From contig JAQUQR010000008.1 of the NCBI GenBank assembly GCA_028715985.1, forward strand, positions 1-61,114: a stretch of DNA of 61,114 nt, in the 5' to 3' direction. The notes below the pieces were generated by a model that was not told the origin of the DNA, did not search any database, and worked only from the letters and a program-made list of their open reading frames with translations. Shown piece by piece: positions 24,798 to 50,211 of the stretch. The translations under genes were made by a program, and so were the position numbers. The number at the start of each line of letters is the position of its first letter. Position 1 is the stretch's first letter. This DNA comes from Methanocellales archaeon (GTDB lineage: Archaea; Halobacteriota; UBA148).

Positions 24798-26921
24798 ATG
24801 AAAAACAAAAAGATTAACCTGATGGTTTTGGTAATTGCAATTACCGCTTTCGCCTGCATGGGCGGCGTGGCAGAAGCTGTGACTTGCTTGCCCGATGGAA
24901 TAGGAGATAACAATGCTCTTTCCAGTGGACCTTATTACCACCAAATCTATTCGGCCACTTCAACTGATGGGATTAATTGGACTGTGGACGACACCCTGCT
25001 TTTTGACCATGCTTCAGTTCCGGGCGCAATCTACTTTGAGAACAAGCTATATCTCTATTACGTCAATGCTGAAGACCCTGAGCATGAGAAATTGAGCGTG
25101 GGAATCAGCAAAGACAGGGGGATGACTTTTACCGTCTATGATGTGCACATCAGCGGTTCCAACAGCCCCCATCCAGTGGATCCCAACCCCATTATCGATG
25201 GCGGTCAGATCAGGCTAACCTACTTAGGGAATTTCAACCAGGGTGAAACTAACAAAATTGTCACAGCCTTATCGTCTGATGGCATCAACTTTACGGAAGA
25301 CGGAGTGATTTTCACCGGGTATGTTTACGATCCAGATTTGTTTTATGATGAAGTCGGCGGCGAGTGGGTGCTTCTCCTCAACACTGGGGGCCTGACAAAA
25401 GCAACGGCCTCTTCTCCCACGACCACCTTCACGGAAGACACTGGTTTTAACTGGTCTGAAGGTAGCATTTCATCGACACACAAAATCGGGGGCAAATACT
25501 ACACTTACTACGCCGGGATGGGAGTCTCAGTCGCCGAGTATTCGAACGGGAGTCTCACGAACATCGCCGACGGTATTTTGGGGTTCCAGGGCTTGAACGC
25601 CGACCCGACTGTAGCCATCTTTGGCGAAAATGATTACAAGATGTTTTTCAAAACGATGGTTGAAGAAGGTGGCGGCGAGGAAGGCGATTGGATAAAAGAA
25701 AGTGGCATCAGACTAGGGGACGGTTCTGTTCCCTACGTTCTCAGGCTTGATAATGGGATGTACAGGATGTATTACAACAATCCTGACGGCATTTTTAGTG
25801 CAATCTCAGAGGATGGCATAAACTTCACAAAAGAGCCGGGGGTAAGGCTAACTGGCACAAACATCCCAGGTGATCCTGAATGGCAGGCTCATGGTGCAAC
25901 GGTAATAGAACTAGATGACGGCTTCTATAGAATGTATTATATAGGCGCCACCGGTGAAGGAGGACCCGGGCATGCGATCCATCGCATTTACAGTGCCATC
26001 TCACCTGATGGTTTAAACTTCACCAGAGAGGGCATAAGAATAGAATCTGAGGGCACGATAGACAACGGCTGGGCATCTGTGCCCGAAATCGTGCGCACAT
26101 TTGATGGAAGATATCATTTATATTATTGCAGTATCGGAGCTGAAAGCATAGCAAGCGCCATATCTGATGATGGTTTAAACTTTACAAGAGAATATGGCCC
26201 AGGACTAGGGAATGGAACGGGAGTTTATGGTGCAGATCCCGCGGTATGCAAGTTACCTGACGGCACATATTGGATGTTTTTCACCTCACCCGGGGGACCG
26301 ATGCCGCCCTGGAATCTGAAGGAAGGCATCTATAGTGCCAGATCGACAGATGGGGTAAATTTCACCAAAGATGCTGGGGTTCGGGTTAGCCCCGGTGGTG
26401 TATATGACAGCGTAAATACTTATGACCCAACCGTGATTAGTCTCTCTGATGGGCGCTTTAGGATTTACTACGGTGGAGCATCAGAAGAGGGTGTTGTTAC
26501 ACTTAGCGCTGTCTCACCACCTATAATCTTCGATACAGGCAACGGCACTTATCCAAGTATCTCGGGCACACACAATGGCACGATCACACCATCATATAAT
26601 GTCAATGTCTCTCATATGTACACATACCCATGTGCAGGAACCGGTGGACACGCAGAATACGTTAAAATATGGAATTCGACATGGAATACGACTGCAACCT
26701 GGAACGGTTACAGCGGAGATTATCACAACCTAACCTTTGATGAGCCTTTCGTATTAAGAGCGGGCGAGACATATAACTACACGATCAAAACAGGCTCCTA
26801 TCCGCAGATAGTACATGCAACCAGTAAAGCCGTCACTGGTGGAACGATCACCTGCACAGAGTTCATAGATGCAAATTGCTGCGTTTATAATAACTGCATT
26901 CCTGCGTTTAGGTTAGGGTAA
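24798..26921 (+). CDS. Exported five-bladed-propeller-like protein with shared C-terminal surface domain
   Basis: The signal peptide (1-26, ends GVAEA) is followed by about 540 residues of repeated blades with the phrase DGINFT or DGLNFTRE and a partner strand such as YRMYYNNPDG or YHLYYCS. This resembles glycoside-hydrolase family 43/62/68-type propellers or sialidase-like folds, but no catalytic triad can be assigned. Residues about 577-707 form a separate beta-rich domain (GTYPSISGTHNGTI, GGHAEYVKIWNSTWNTTATW, RAGETYNYTI, ATSKAVTGGTITC). The same domain ends the 39640-42921 protein and is left as a fragment at 15658. It may be a surface-attachment module. Confidence 0.8.
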   Translation: MKNKKINLMVLVIAITAFACMGGVAEAVTCLPDGIGDNNALSSGPYYHQIYSATSTDGINWTVDDTLLFDHASVPGAIYFENKLYLYYVNAEDPEHEKLSVGISKDRGMTFTVYDVHISGSNSPHPVDPNPIIDGGQIRLTYLGNFNQGETNKIVTALSSDGINFTEDGVIFTGYVYDPDLFYDEVGGEWVLLLNTGGLTKATASSPTTTFTEDTGFNWSEGSISSTHKIGGKYYTYYAGMGVSVAEYSNGSLTNIADGILGFQGLNADPTVAIFGENDYKMFFKTMVEEGGGEEGDWIKESGIRLGDGSVPYVLRLDNGMYRMYYNNPDGIFSAISEDGINFTKEPGVRLTGTNIPGDPEWQAHGATVIELDDGFYRMYYIGATGEGGPGHAIHRIYSAISPDGLNFTREGIRIESEGTIDNGWASVPEIVRTFDGRYHLYYCSIGAESIASAISDDGLNFTREYGPGLGNGTGVYGADPAVCKLPDGTYWMFFTSPGGPMPPWNLKEGIYSARSTDGVNFTKDAGVRVSPGGVYDSVNTYDPTVISLSDGRFRIYYGGASEEGVVTLSAVSPPIIFDTGNGTYPSISGTHNGTITPSYNVNVSHMYTYPCAGTGGHAEYVKIWNSTWNTTATWNGYSGDYHNLTFDEPFVLRAGETYNYTIKTGSYPQIVHATSKAVTGGTITCTEFIDANCCVYNNCIPAFRLG

Positions 26922-32745: not shown

Positions 32746-33300
32746 TTAAATATCTTTGCAAAACCACTCTGCAAATTTCCTCAGTGCAACACATCTGTGC
32801 GATACTTCGTTCTTCTCTTCGGTGGACATCTGGGCAAACGTCTTGTTTTGATAAAGAAAGATCGGATCGTAGCCAAAACCCATCTTTCCACGAGGCTCAT
32901 TAGATATCTCTCCTTCCACGGAACCACTAAAAGTGATCACCTCTTTGTCAGGTTCACAGAATCCAATCACAGATCTGAACTGAGCATTGCGATCTTCTAC
33001 ACCTCTCATCAACTTCAATATGCCTTCATTGCCAATGCATTTGAAAGTGAACGACGAATATGGTCCGGGAAAACCCTTCAGGGCAGAGATAAACATCCCA
33101 GCATCCTCCACCATAACCGGCCTTTTCAAATGCATGGCAGCATCCCTTGCGCCATATTTTGCAATGCTCTCCAAATCATCAGATTGGATCTCAGGGTATT
33201 CATAATGGATTTGCTGGACCCCTATGCCCAACTTCTCAAGCATCGCTTTTGCCTCTCTAACCTTTCCAGCGTTTCCGGTTACAAAATAAACGGTCTTCAT
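32746..33300 (-). CDS. rdgB: Non-canonical purine NTP pyrophosphatase (RdgB/HAM1)
   Basis: Hydrolyses dITP, ITP and XTP. The N-terminal FVTGNAGKVREAK motif, DAGMFISALKGFPGPYSS (active aspartate), GMGFGYDPIFLY-like GKMGFGYDPIFLY and SHRCVALRKF are diagnostic. The length of 184 residues is normal. It overlaps bud32 by 4 bp, an arrangement seen in other archaea. Confidence 0.95.
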   Translation of the reverse strand: MKTVYFVTGNAGKVREAKAMLEKLGIGVQQIHYEYPEIQSDDLESIAKYGARDAAMHLKRPVMVEDAGMFISALKGFPGPYSSFTFKCIGNEGILKLMRGVEDRNAQFRSVIGFCEPDKEVITFSGSVEGEISNEPRGKMGFGYDPIFLYQNKTFAQMSTEEKNEVSHRCVALRKFAEWFCKDI

Positions 33301-33884
33301 AGTCTTTCGGTCCTGTATCTGCCCCTTGATTCTATCGCTTTTACGCGTTGAATGATCTCTTTAGCGCCATCAAACGTCTTTTCATATCCCTCGATGAACG
33401 CATTTATCAGCGCTTCATGCTCATCATGAGTGCTTTCGAATGTTTGGAAGAGCACATGCACGTCCACGCCTCGTGCCTCAGTGCTGTGGTCAAAGTATGC
33501 CAGTCCAAAGTCGATCAGGTAAATCCTTCCTTGCGAAAGAATCATGTTTGAAGTGGTCAGGTCGCCATGAACGATGCCTGAGGTGTGGAGCCTCCCTACC
33601 AGTTCGCCGATTCTCTTGCATAGGCCTACATCAAGTACATGTTTGAGCTGTGCCCCCTCCAGATATTCCATCCTTATATCATAATCGGTGACGTCATAGA
33701 TGATGGGTGTCGGAATACCTGCTCTGCGAGCCTCTGAGATCAGTTTTGCCTCTGACTTCGTGCGATCTCTTCGAAGCTGCTCGTCTACTTCTTTGATCCT
33801 ATAGCGCTTGGGCATTCGCTGTTTTAATATATGCCCGTCACATGATCTGACGATTGCCTCGGCGCCACTCGTCTTTAGATTCAT
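33297..33884 (-). CDS. bud32: KEOPS complex kinase/ATPase Bud32
   Basis: Small atypical kinase of 195 residues. The N-terminus has GAEAIVRSCDG and KYRIKEVDEQLRRDRTKSEAKL-like segments; the catalytic loop is IVHGDLTTSNMI and the metal site LIDFGLAYF. In several methanogens Kae1 and Bud32 are fused; here Bud32 is separate and kae1 lies 13 kb away. First gene of a minus-strand operon with rdgB, rps15, recJ-like, pcc1 and serS. Confidence 0.93.
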   Translation of the reverse strand: MNLKTSGAEAIVRSCDGHILKQRMPKRYRIKEVDEQLRRDRTKSEAKLISEARRAGIPTPIIYDVTDYDIRMEYLEGAQLKHVLDVGLCKRIGELVGRLHTSGIVHGDLTTSNMILSQGRIYLIDFGLAYFDHSTEARGVDVHVLFQTFESTHDEHEALINAFIEGYEKTFDGAKEIIQRVKAIESRGRYRTERL

Positions 33885-46695: not shown

Positions 46696-46857
46696 ATGGT
46701 CAGCAAATTCTATGATACTGGTGATAAGACGCTAAAGCGAACGAGGCAAATCTGCCCGCGCTGTGGAGATGGTACTTTTCTAGCTGAGCATAGCGACCGG
46801 CGCTCATGCGGCAAGTGTGGTTACACGGAGTTCAAGTCTAAAAAGAATGAAAAATAG
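46696..46857 (+). CDS. rps27ae: Small-subunit ribosomal protein S27ae
   Basis: Read directly from the sequence: 53 codons, [17 protein letters not shown] followed by the zinc ribbon [18 protein letters not shown] and [10 protein letters not shown]. The spacing CxxC...CxxC and the gene position between rps24e and kae1 are both standard for archaea. It begins 2 bp after the rps24e stop and overlaps kae1 by 11 bp. Confidence 0.93.
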
Positions 46858-47824
46858 ATTTGTCCTGGGTATAGAAGGGACGGCTTGGAACCTAAGTGCT
46901 GCCATTGTCGATCGTACCAATATTGTTGCCGAGGCAGAGTCGCAATACCTGCCTCAGAAAGGTGGTCTGCACCCCAGAATGGCAGCGCAACACCATGCAT
47001 CTAACATCGGAGATCTGATAAAAAAGGTCTTAGCTGAAGGGGCTGGCAAGGATCTATCTGCCGTCGCCTTCTCGCAAGGTCCGGGATTTGGGCCTTGTCT
47101 TAGAACGATAGCGACCGCTGCCAGAGCTCTCTCTCTTTCCTTAGACATTCCGCTGATAGGGGTAAATCACTGCATTGCTCACATCGAGGTTGGCAGGAGG
47201 ATATGCAATGTGACGGATCCGGTTATATTGTACGTAAGCGGTGGCAATTCTCAGGTGCTTTCTTATAGGGCAGGCAAGTACAGGATATTCGGAGAAACCT
47301 TGGACATCGGTATAGGCAACGCACTCGATAAGTTTGGTCGATATGCCGGATTTCAACATCCCGGTGGACCAAAGATAGAGCAGCTGGCTAAAAATGCGAA
47401 GAAGTACGTTCCTTTGCCCTATGTTGTCAAAGGCATGGATTTCTCGTTCTCCGGGCTGACGACTGCGGCGAAGGATGCTTTGGAGCATGCATCCCAGGAG
47501 GACGTATGTTACTCCTTCCAGGAGACGGCATTTGCGATGCTCGTGGAAGTGACGGAGCGAGCTCTGGCTCATATAGGAAAAGACGATGTTCTCCTCGTAG
47601 GGGGGGTCGGAGCCAATGAAAGACTGAAAGAAATGCTCGGCATCATGTGTAAGGATAGGGGCGCAAGATTGTATGCGCCAGAAAAGAAGTTTATGCGGGA
47701 TAATGGAGTCATGATTGCCCATACCGGGCTGCTCATGCTTGAGAGCGGCGTAACTCTTCCCATCGAGGATTCTGCGGTGCGCCCAAACTATCGACCAGAT
47801 GATGTTGATGTGGTATGGATATAG
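46847..47824 (+). CDS. kae1: KEOPS catalytic subunit Kae1
   Basis: Transfers the threonylcarbamoyl group to tRNA A37. The 325-residue ASKHA protein starts [16 protein letters not shown] and has the metal-binding [10 protein letters not shown] and HCIAHIE, then [12 protein letters not shown] and [10 protein letters not shown]. It is not fused to Bud32, which lies in another operon. Last gene of the operon; the attC-like array begins about 100 bp after its stop. Confidence 0.95.
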
Positions 47825-47919: not shown

Positions 47920-47991
47920 ATGTAACATTACGTATTTTAGGGCACATTCAAGTATTAAGCGTAATAAAACTATGCTTAATGTATGTTAAGT
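47920..47991 (+). other. Possible attC-like site at the left edge of the cassette array
   Basis: GTTAAGT at 47985-47991 fits the integron R' consensus GTTRRRY, and ATGTAAC at 47920-47926 could be its R'' partner. ATTAAGCGTA and TATGCTTAAT form an internal hairpin. The inner L boxes pair poorly (CATTACG with CTTAATG), so this site is weaker than the two that follow. It could be an attI-like or degenerate site. Confidence 0.4.
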
Positions 47992-48010
47992 TCAATAAAT
48001 CTGGATTCCT

Positions 48011-48035
48011 AAAAAATGGAAGGGGGCAATTTCTA
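48011..48035. repeat. Left arm of an inverted repeat bracketing the HNH cassette gene
   Basis: AAGGGGGCAATTTCTA here is matched by the reverse complement of TAGAAATTGCCCCTT at 48645-48659, with A-rich extensions on both outer sides (one extra G in the left arm). The arms enclose the coding region; the right arm includes the stop codon. Confidence 0.8.
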
Positions 48036-48044
48036 AACGCAAAG

Positions 48045-48053
48045 TTTAAAAAG
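48045..48053 (+). promoter_or_regulatory. TATA box of cassette 1
   Basis: TTTAAAAAG is centred about 28 bases before the ATG at 48078, and no ribosome-binding site precedes that ATG. This is the layout of an archaeal promoter with a leaderless transcript. Confidence 0.55.
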
Positions 48054-48077
48054 TATTTAAATCAAATATAATAATAC

Positions 48078-48647
48078 ATGGTAGATTCAAAAAATAAAAT
48101 TCAATTCATTCCTTTGGTTGTTGGATTAATCGTGCTATTCTTTATTGGTTATATACTCTTTATTGAGTATATTGTAAAGATTTTATTACCACCAGAATAC
48201 CAAATATATCTGTACATTTTTGCAGGATTAATCGTAGTAGTTATTGGAATAATAACCTATTTTTGTATAAAAAACATTGAATTCAGAGAGAGAACCTTTT
48301 CAGTTCTCAAGAAGTTACTTGCAGGAATAAGCAAACTTGGACTTGATGTTTTAAAAAACATGGAAAAAGGAGAAAGGAAAGGTAAGGAAAAGAGGATTCC
48401 AATATCTAACAAATTAAAAAATAAAGTTTATGATATTGCTGGTGGAAAATGTCAAGAGTGTGGTAAAAAAGGTAATCTAAAGATTCACCATATTGATGGG
48501 AATCCATCCAACAACAGACTTACTAATTTAGTTCTTCTATGCGGAAACCACCATGACGATGCAGATAAAGGAGTTATTCCAAAATGGAGATTAAAAAATA
48601 TTAGAGAAAAACAAGCAACTCCAGATCACACTTCTTATAGAAAATAG
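48078..48647 (+). CDS. Membrane-anchored HNH endonuclease (cassette 1 gene)
   Basis: The 189-residue protein has two membrane helices (about residues 11-35 and 47-68), a lysine-rich cytoplasmic linker, and a C-terminal HNH domain (residues 120-170). The domain has CQECGKKGNLKIHHIDG with the first CxxC and the HH pair, then NLVLLCGNHHDDAD with the asparagine and second metal-binding site. Free-standing HNH nucleases tied to the membrane are unusual; action on incoming DNA is a possible role but is inference. The gene is AT-rich relative to kae1 and map, and has its own TATA box. Confidence 0.75.
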   Translation: MVDSKNKIQFIPLVVGLIVLFFIGYILFIEYIVKILLPPEYQIYLYIFAGLIVVVIGIITYFCIKNIEFRERTFSVLKKLLAGISKLGLDVLKNMEKGERKGKEKRIPISNKLKNKVYDIAGGKCQECGKKGNLKIHHIDGNPSNNRLTNLVLLCGNHHDDADKGVIPKWRLKNIREKQATPDHTSYRK

Positions 48648-48667
48648 AAATTGCCCCTTGATTTTTT
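48645..48667. repeat. Right arm of the inverted repeat bracketing the HNH cassette gene
   Basis: TAGAAATTGCCCCTTGATTT pairs with the arm at 48011-48035. Because it starts at the stop codon and runs into T's it could also act as part of a transcript-end structure. Confidence 0.8.
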
Positions 48668-48728
48668 GTCTTTATGTATCACTTCGTTCTCAAGATAGAT
48701 GGACTCCAGATTTACTCTGTGGACGCAG

Positions 48729-48753
48729 GTTTCCCACACTTTGTATGGGAAAC
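48729..48753. terminator. Hairpin upstream of attC1
   Basis: GTTTCCCA (48729-48736) and TGGGAAAC (48746-48753) form a perfect 8-bp stem with a 9-base loop, directly before the recombination site. It may end the cassette 1 transcript; no T-run follows it. Confidence 0.45.
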
Positions 48754-48754
48754 A

Positions 48755-48853
48755 AGTTAACAGCGATTTAACGGTTCGCTTCAAAAATTTCCAAGAAATT
48801 TTCCGCGCTCCCAAATCGCCTTCGGCGACTTCGTTAAATCGCATACGTTATAT
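48755..48853 (+). other. attC-like recombination site 1
   Basis: R'' AGTTAAC (48755-48761), L'' GCGATTTAACG (48763-48773), L' CGTTAAATCGC (48832-48842), R' GTTATAT (48847-48853). L'' and L' are exact reverse complements (11 of 11). R' has the conserved GTT and differs from GTTRRRY at one base; GTTATAT ends are also known in bacterial attC sites. Between the arms lie two further small palindromes (AAAATTTC-CAA-GAAATTTT and TCGCC-TTC-GGCGA). Confidence 0.65.
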
Positions 48854-48872
48854 TCAATTTTGGTCATCACAA

Positions 48873-48882
48873 TATTTAAATA
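48873..48882 (+). promoter_or_regulatory. TATA box of cassette 2
   Basis: TATTTAAATA is centred 27 bases before the ATG at 48905, which has no ribosome-binding site. It lies inside the cassette, downstream of the R' box of attC1, so it would travel with the cassette. Confidence 0.6.
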
Positions 48883-48904
48883 ATATGTAACTAATCTATA
48901 TAAC

Positions 48905-49093
48905 ATGGCATTTGACACATCCATTTTAATTTGGCTAATTCCTTTAATTATTTGGGACGCCATTTGGAAAGGGATGGGTTTATGGAAATCTGCAAAAAAT
49001 AATCAACGAAACTGGTTTATTGCCATTTTTGTGTTGAATACTATTGGAATTTTACCAATTATTTATATTAAGTTTTTCCAAAAGAAGCGATGA
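48905..49093 (+). CDS. DUF5652-like small membrane protein (cassette 2 gene)
   Basis: The 62-residue protein has two membrane helices: LIWLIPLIIWDAIWKGMGLW and WFIAIFVLNTIGILPIIYI. The WKGMxLWKSAKNNQRNWFIAIFVLNTIGILP pattern matches the DUF5652 family of short prokaryotic membrane proteins, which has no known function. The start is ATG at 48905 and appears leaderless. The stop is 72 bp before attC2. Confidence 0.72.
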   Translation: MAFDTSILIWLIPLIIWDAIWKGMGLWKSAKNNQRNWFIAIFVLNTIGILPIIYIKFFQKKR

Positions 49094-49111
49094 CCAAAAC
49101 TCTTCAGAATT

Positions 49112-49128
49112 TTTTTGCTTCGCAAAAA
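49112..49128. terminator. Short hairpin downstream of cassette 2 gene
   Basis: TTTTTGC-TTC-GCAAAAA is a perfect 7-bp stem 19 bases after the stop codon. It could end the cassette 2 transcript. Confidence 0.4.
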
Positions 49129-49164
49129 CCGTCTTGCAGACTATTCTTCGTTCCTATCGCAAGA

Positions 49165-49280
49165 ATATAACAGTGATTAACCGACTTCACTCGGTTGCAC
49201 CTCGTTCCGTCCATATTTTTCGGAGATTTATAATTTTTATATAGTCCGAAAAACATCGGTTAATCGCGCATAAGTTAGAT
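49165..49280 (+). other. attC-like recombination site 2
   Basis: R'' ATATAAC (49165-49171), L'' GTGATTAACCGA (49173-49184), L' TCGGTTAATCGC (49256-49267), R' GTTAGAT (49274-49280), the last a perfect GTTRRRY. L'' and L' pair at 11 of 12 positions. Inside, TTTTTCGGA and TCCGAAAAA form a second perfect 9-bp stem, with an unpaired stretch on one side. The 116-bp length is in the normal range for attC sites. Confidence 0.72.
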
Positions 49281-49338
49281 ACAGTTGGTGAAATCTCCTA
49301 TTGTTAATTGCCCTTTCAATTCTTATTCTTATGAAAAG

Positions 49339-50211
49339 CTACTTTGTTATCACCCTGCATCCGTCCTTTTCCACGATGACCGTATGTTCTGCTTGCGATA
49401 CCAAGCCACCTGCATCATCTTTGAGCACCGGATAGGAGTGCATTATGCCAGCTCTCTCCAGTTGATTCAATATGAAATCTAGGCGGGGTTGGGGAAGCCA
49501 CCTCTTTGCGAAAGGAAGCATTTTGTACCCTTCGATCTCGTTCAACAATTTTCTCGCTGCTGGAAGGCGAACCGGCTTGGGTGTCTCCAACCGATATATC
49601 TCCGCCGTTCTACTCTCTGAGACATGGCCGGCGCCGTTTGTGGCAAACGGTTCGATCGCTATTATGTCGCCTTCTTTGAGGACGGCTCCATGCAGAACGG
49701 ATTTGTTTGGGATGGGGGGGGAAGCATGGTGATCCCATCTCGCTAAGCCATGCCCGGTGAGATTCGCAACTGGTTTATATCCAGAGCCTTCTATGGTGCT
49801 TTCGATCGCTGCACCGATTTCTGCGGTGTTTGTGCCGGCATGAATGATCTCTATTGCAGAGAGCAATGCCTCTCTGGAAGCTTCGACTAAATCCGCATTG
49901 CCGCTCAAATCCACGGTGATGGCGGCGTCAGCGATATAACCATCGACCTGTACTCCTATGTCGAGCTTGACCATGTCTCTCCCGAAGACAGAGATATCCT
50001 TGGCAGAAGGCGTTGCATGTGCAGCCTCGTCGTTTCTCGATATATTGCATGGGAATGCAGGCTGTGCGCCCTCCTCCCTGATGGTATTTTCAACGAACTC
50101 AGCTAAATCCAGCAAAGGCGCTCCTATCTTGACCATATCCTTTGCTTTTGACATGACATCAGCTAGGATCTGCCCGGCCATTTCATATTTCTTTAAAATT
50201 TCATCTTTCAT
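49339..50211 (-). CDS. map: Methionine aminopeptidase (type II)
   Basis: Removes the initiator methionine. The 290-residue protein has the substrate histidine in EAAHATPS, metal ligands in VKLDIGVQVDGYIADAAITVD, NLTGHGLARWDHH, IAIEPFATNG and the final SQAEHTVIV. The insertion typical of archaeal/eukaryotic type II enzymes is present near the C-terminus (NEIEGYKMLPFAKRWL). It ends about 58 bp from the attC2 site and is the second gene of a pair with the M24 peptidase. Confidence 0.95.
   Translation of the reverse strand: MKDEILKKYEMAGQILADVMSKAKDMVKIGAPLLDLAEFVENTIREEGAQPAFPCNISRNDEAAHATPSAKDISVFGRDMVKLDIGVQVDGYIADAAITVDLSGNADLVEASREALLSAIEIIHAGTNTAEIGAAIESTIEGSGYKPVANLTGHGLARWDHHASPPIPNKSVLHGAVLKEGDIIAIEPFATNGAGHVSESRTAEIYRLETPKPVRLPAARKLLNEIEGYKMLPFAKRWLPQPRLDFILNQLERAGIMHSYPVLKDDAGGLVSQAEHTVIVEKDGCRVITK

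Follow-up and report, generated by a model that had tools for sequence, protein, structure and literature searches.

Two small AT-rich genes, each followed by an imperfect palindrome of the integron type, lie between kae1 and map in an archaeal chromosome, and the question is how integron cassettes came to be there when no integrase was found near their attC sites. The DNA analysed (the window, 61,114 nucleotides) is an entire contig (C8) of a 1.5-Mb genome (G000; completeness 96%, contamination 0%). An earlier note on its sequence had proposed a cassette array lacking an integrase. That positions 47986-49274 hold two integron cassettes is confirmed, and the cassettes very probably belong to an archaeal integron family with an insert-less integrase, placed at G^TTA behind kae1.

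Two cassettes and their junction

The flanking genes encode archaeal core proteins, Kae1/TsaD and methionine aminopeptidase, as profile matches confirm, and on either side the same gene order continues in the sister species G002, at 91-93% identity. This two-sided synteny rules out contamination as the source of the cassettes, which the earlier note had already considered unlikely. Both cassette genes share one orientation, each is located upstream of its own attC, and the cassettes have a low GC content compared with 45% for the whole window (Table 1).

Table 1. Features of the kae1-map interval (positions in the window) and of the decayed platforms on contigs C5 and C9 of the same genome
Feature	Position	Strand	Remarks
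kae1 (TsaD/Kae1), left core-gene flank	46817..47824	+	PF00814, 274.9 bits; syntenic in G002
Inverted repeat ATTAAGCGTA/TATGCTTAAT	47954..47980	.	directly upstream of crossover; attG-like or attI-like target; conserved in G002
Left crossover G^TTAAGT	47985..47986	+	G002 homology ends at crossover
Cassette 1	47986..48847	+	862 bp, 32% GC; start motif TTAAGTTCAAT
Cassette gene 1	48078..48647	+	189-aa membrane protein; N-terminal hydrophobic segments, C-terminal HNH domain (PF13392 HNH_3)
attC-a	48755..48853	+	R'' 48755-48761, L'' 48763-48773, L' 48832-48842, R' 48847-48853
Cassette 2	48848..49274	+	427 bp, 32% GC; start TTATATTCAAT
TATA-like box, archaeal type, TTTAAATA	48875..48882	+	perfect; 30 nt before DUF5652 ATG; predicted function
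Cassette gene 2	48905..49093	+	62-aa DUF5652 membrane protein (PF18893)
attC-b	49165..49280	+	R'' ATATAAC, R' GTTAGAT
Right flank, last attC to map	49281..49338	.	unlike G002; without cassette-start motif
map (methionine aminopeptidase), right core-gene flank	49339..50211	-	PF00557, 110 bits; 92% identity in G002
Decayed platform, C5	integrase C-terminus 32908-33036; attI G at 33077; attC 33604-33686
Decayed platform, C9	integrase remnant 26619-26750; attI G at 26477; attC 25306-25395

The product of cassette gene 1 matches its HNH profile at 27.8 bits (cut-off 24.8) and that of cassette gene 2 matches PF18893 at 84.2 bits (cut-off 23.4). Against IMG/VR the cassette 1 protein gives solely short HNH-level matches, and an Rfam scan of the cassette region returned nothing real. 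Perfect matches to the TATA-like box at the corresponding upstream position occur in 12% of 57 cassettes versus 0.5% in shuffles; some of the cassettes probably carry a predicted archaeal promoter of their own, and may be expressed from their TATA boxes.

Both sites have the full attC layout, with the pairing and R' boxes (GTTATAT and GTTAGAT) that the note had given. In attC-a, R'' is AGTTAAC and the L'' and L' arms (GCGATTTAACG/CGTTAAATCGC) pair at 11 of 11 positions, while 11 of 12 positions pair in attC-b. The imperfect L''/L' pairing is thus enclosed by RYYYAAC...GTTRRRY boxes, from which GTTATAT departs at one position of RRR and AGTTAAC at one of RYYY. The earlier note had staked its reading on attC hits being found on one strand or the other; an unsupervised AAC-stem-GTT scan of both strands of the 61-kb window placed attC-a and attC-b, and nothing else, above threshold. 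The bottom-strand fold of attC-a (-21.6 kcal/mol) is well below that of shuffled sequences (z = -4.95), and that of attC-b is moderate (z = -2.76). The two sites are ~310 bp apart with no adjacent intI, in keeping with the definition of a cassette cluster without integrase (CALIN: at least two attC sites less than 4 kb apart).

The array starts at G47985^T47986, where the note had put it. In G002 the 3' flank of kae1 is 88% identical through GTATGTTA and diverges completely thereafter, and the point of divergence is G^TTA, the integron crossover, right behind the conserved inverted repeat. Beyond it G002 has another cassette, which starts TTAGGCGAAAT, encodes a YdjM-family membrane protein and carries its own attC; the cassette junctions thus fall at G^TT, as those of attC cassettes do. 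Comparison of the kae1-map interval among relatives, proposed in the note, was informative in G002, where the different cassette shows that the same two genes do not recur in fixed order in all relatives, but not in G001 and G004, where the gene order is different, or in G003, where contigs end. After the last attC the window reads TTAGATACAGTT, without the cassette-start motif, as expected for native DNA; G002 does not share this right flank, so that neither it nor the other three relatives supplied a template for the empty site.

A second orthologous intergenic region, on C5 of the window's genome and C33 of G002, likewise holds differing cassette sets, and a solo attC on C1 has been inherited in both genomes. 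An array on C1 is ordered A-B-C here versus C-A-B in G003 (C36); the reordering was dropped as proof of integrase action, because a duplicated 70-bp native repeat permits homologous recombination.

A covarying class of attC sites

A plain BLAST search of the window's genome with the insert as query revealed, on C1 and C4, identical arms around unrelated loops, and arms with differing loops occur at about eight places in that genome. A first covariance model, built from five sites, found further sites in G002, G003 and G005. The arm pattern, defined as two arms with a free loop of 35-65 nt, matched 17 times in a contig set from 84,980 species (~0.2 expected), with 12 matches being archaeal (Methanocellales, Methanophagales, Altiarchaeales, Nanoarchaeota, Woese-, Pace- and Aenigmatarchaeota) and the remaining five labelled bacterial, two of these as CPR lineages; it had no match in IMG/VR. 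The hosts of the class are Halobacteriota, Altiarchaeota, DPANN archaea and a small number of bacteria, the latter mostly with small CPR-type genomes.

In an alignment of 39 sites, 96% of cells are paired and both sides have changed in 9 of 15 pairs; sites picked by pattern are biased to conserved arms, and the covarying sites come largely from the model search. None of 500 shuffles reached the covariation score. Compensatory change is therefore present together with a variable terminal loop, as in attC sites, and the recurring sites form a covarying attC class rather than the ordinary repeats that the note had named as a contrary outcome. With a refined model (R2), 66 of the phylum's 394 genomes proved to have the class; most of the sites are scattered, and the single-contig genome G406 has seven; R2 did not match the class 1 integron attCs on plasmids. 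Across 69 class sites the cassette start has the consensus GTTANNNNMAAT, the last three positions being A (80%), A (90%) and T (86%).

Extrahelical bases on the L'' side, a usual mark of attC, were not found; in many sites two nucleotides, TT, bulge from the L' arm instead. This was not taken to exclude attC, because the feature is variable in canonical sites. The bulge is left by a conserved AACTTC on the 3' arm (A4 alignment, e.g. L104 1081-1168 and L106 7998-8081) and is on the side opposite to the extra base that the class 1 aadA2 attC has on L'', so that strand choice could differ.

Miniature inverted-repeat elements, or terminator palindromes following small AT-rich genes, might also leave AT-rich palindromes scattered through a genome, as seen here. 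Such elements, however, would not account for arms that are conserved and covarying around loops unrelated in sequence and length, for single-copy genes of unrelated function between the sites, for homology that stops exactly at G^TT, or for a start motif shared by attC-bounded cassettes and those bounded by attI. With the G^TT junction and the attI linkage described below both refuting it, a non-integron origin has next to no probability.

Among the scattered sites of the window's genome, a solo attC on C1 (L038 8217-8683) is directly followed by a small gene and a ParE toxin gene, likely a toxin-antitoxin pair. Near the end of contig C2 (L039 7700-10285) there are two degenerate or truncated attC sites; an attC is found at the orthologous place in G002:C11, and the assembly break falls in the cassette region. 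At another locus (L040 8568-8695 and 8953-9558) a solo attC has as its neighbour an HXXEE membrane gene of the opposite orientation.

A short integrase, its attI and its decay

A canonical IntI above the TIGR02249 cut-off was found neither in the 394 genomes of the phylum nor in 17 genomes with attC that the genome collection names, and every strong match among the 394 breaks up near model positions 180 and 233. SAM-like and Phage_integrase domains are found in the best-scoring proteins, and none of the six catalytic residues is missing, the hexad R-K-H-R-H-Y being invariant in these short integrases. Absent is the IntI-specific insertion around patch III: a 35-residue block of IntI1 is missing, and in the alignment of the G006 protein to VchIntIA 67 VchIntIA residues stand opposite only 25. 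Two intact proteins score 230 and 225 bits against TIGR02249 (cut-off 265 bits), and the XerA model NF040815 (cut-off 220 bits) gives 247 bits for G006 and 218 bits for L081. By phmmer the G006 protein is about equally close to VchIntIA (156 bits) and Thermoplasma XerA (154 bits), and the tree leaves the order of IntI, XerA and the short-integrase group open. The NCBIfam title of NF040815 is 'site-specific tyrosine recombinase/integron integrase'; since the model covers XerA-like proteins, annotation alone cannot separate XerA from integron integrase.

The short integrase is linked to the attC class. In 17 regions searched with R2, 13 of them chosen with adjacency partly known, attC is found on the integrase strand, 0.2-3.6 kb beyond the integrase in the downstream direction. 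Among 23 integrases picked for protein only and not cut by a contig end, eight have attC within ~6 kb (G006, G005, G050, G406 twice, G216, G290:C3 and, in a divergent layout, G088), the chance of such proximity being <1% per locus. Nearly all 17 linked regions also have an attI module. It has one to three imperfect palindromes (for example TATACGCAATATTGCGGATATA) lying past the integrase stop codon and before the first cassette, then AG^TTA and the cassette start TTANNNNMAAT; this start motif is common to attI- and attC-bounded cassettes. Complete integrons, with integrase, attI and attC array in cis, are thus present in relatives, for example G006, G050 and G201. In several genomes the contig stops precisely at attI, a place at which a repetitive array would interrupt the assembly.

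Five integrases with an attI module (L182, L214-L217) have no R2-detectable attC. Six related insert-less recombinases, all intact (L206-L211), have neither attI nor attC and serve as negative controls, so the protein type alone is no marker of an integron; repeated CCGTAACGG motifs downstream of L207, L210 and L211 perhaps belong to another recombination system. At loci L081 (1365-2186, CAJVXI010000024.1), L077, L085 and L213, from CPR/DPANN genomes and from G088, the integrase gene faces away from the attC sites. This is the classical intI layout, the same-strand layout being that of the other Halobacteriota.

The window locus might instead be an ordinary CALIN served in trans by a canonical IntI, bacterial or archaeal, with the short recombinase a XerA dimer resolvase or a passenger. 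Archaeal integrons were reported in 2022, most of them as CALINs, and their attCs were recombined by a bacterial class 1 integron (Ghaly 2022, PMC9668308); the short recombinase passes the recomb_XerA_Arch cut-off in G006, and the IntI insertion has been termed essential to integron function, yet is not fully conserved (Smyshlyaev 2021, PMC8138268). The survey of 394 and 17 genomes, however, supplied no such IntI, and the short recombinase is tied to attC in fixed orientation, with a dedicated attI that ends in the cassette crossover. Moreover, decay or duplication has affected some copies (G005, C5, C9), which is not the pattern of a housekeeping resolvase. An ordinary CALIN is therefore considered unlikely.

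No intact short-group integrase was found in the window's own genome or genus. The genome keeps, however, two decayed integrase-attI platforms (Table 1), of which that on C9 has an ortholog in G002:C8, so that the description of an array without integrase holds locally but not for the genome as a whole. The genome-wide search for intI with the integron-specific patch, suggested in the note, would have missed such an integrase, because the integrase in relatives lacks that patch. A PF00589 match on C7 (L001 1441-2412), the genome's only other clear tyrosine recombinase, was rejected as a candidate integrase, being an unrelated long-branch protein. The window cassettes are thus relics of a system with a decayed enzyme, barring an intact copy in the missing 4% of the genome. 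Given that the attC class is tied to the insert-less integrase and attI, and that the genome's own platforms are decayed, it was concluded that the locus is a CALIN dispersed from an insert-less archaeal integron.

The favoured pathway has four components: a Xer/IntI-type integrase that lacks the IntI-specific insertion; an attI, immediately 3' of the integrase gene, with tandem short palindromes ending AG^TTA; cassettes starting TTANNNNMAAT; and hairpin attC sites of the AACAGCG...CGCATAYGTTA class. The putative attC recombinase, the short integrase, would act on an attC folded from single-stranded DNA, whose G^TT it would join to that of attI or, more rarely, to secondary G^TT sites in the chromosome, whereby cassettes would disperse over the chromosome. 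One such site may be that behind kae1, where two cassettes would have been inserted in tandem at G^TTA beside the inverted repeat; with decay of the integrase to C-terminal remnants in the window's species, they would now be orphans. Cassettes can also be inserted outside attI arrays at genomic attG sites, that is, at G^TT in native DNA. The kae1-map site, with its G^TT in native DNA, may be a natural example of this in an archaeon.

The kae1-map site could alternatively be a genuine attI, left over in the window's lineage after loss of the adjacent integrase gene. Its inverted repeat, directly before G^TTA, is attI-like and has been kept in G002 despite different cassettes, but its sequence is unlike the attI modules of other platforms, including those on C5 and C9, and no integrase remnant was found at kae1-map. 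This makes a relic attI rather unlikely, and a secondary G^TT site is preferred.

Relation to known integrons and to Xer/dif

Ghaly 2022, whose main text does not name the order of the window's archaeon, accepted IntIs only if they carried the IntI-specific domain (PMC9668308). The archaeal CALINs described there likewise are attC arrays of small accessory genes in archaeal chromosomes with no neighbouring intI; what differs here is the linked integrase without the IntI domain, the other type of attI, the scattered singletons and the demonstration of orthologous sites with different cassettes. With class 1 and chromosomal integrons (IntI1, VchIntIA) the family shares the G^TTRRRY crossover, the R''/L''/L'/R' layout, one-way cassettes and a tyrosine integrase beside attI. 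Unlike these, it lacks the 35-residue IntI insert and has attI 3' of the integrase, with tandem palindromes; the cassette-start motif is extended, and R2 misses class 1 plasmid attCs.

With regard to the archaeal XerA/dif system (Cortez 2010, PMC2958812), the integrase scores above the NF040815 cut-off in G006 and just below it in L081. The GATATA/TATATC arms of attI recall the P. abyssi dif site, the sequence of which is given in that paper, and suggest that attI and the short integrase may be related to Xer/dif. The target here, however, is attI together with hairpin attC, and the genes are linked to cassette arrays and are sometimes duplicated or decayed. The integron-like simple tyrosine recombinases of Smyshlyaev 2021 (PMC8138268) are of the same protein class, but insertion-less members were not tied to cassette arrays there, whereas here they are linked. 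Archaeal integrons as such are already known; a search of open-access journal papers found no report of insert-less integrases with attC arrays or of this attI, which appears to be a new type.

If the family is as proposed, standard integron finders, which require the IntI-specific domain, overlook it and mislabel its arrays as integrase-less. Two questions become testable, namely whether the IntI insertion is needed for a folded attC and whether integrons derive from Xer/dif. The family would also provide natural examples of cassettes lodged at G^TT in the chromosome, one and the same spot holding different cassettes in sister species. On balance we favour a widespread archaeal, partly CPR, integron lineage that works with a minimal Xer-like integrase and a dif-like palindromic attI, the integrase either never having had the IntI insertion or having lost it. 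Such a lineage would be intermediate between Xer/dif and canonical integrons, the IntI patch would be dispensable for recombining hairpin attC, and a Xer-like recombinase may suffice for shuffling genes.
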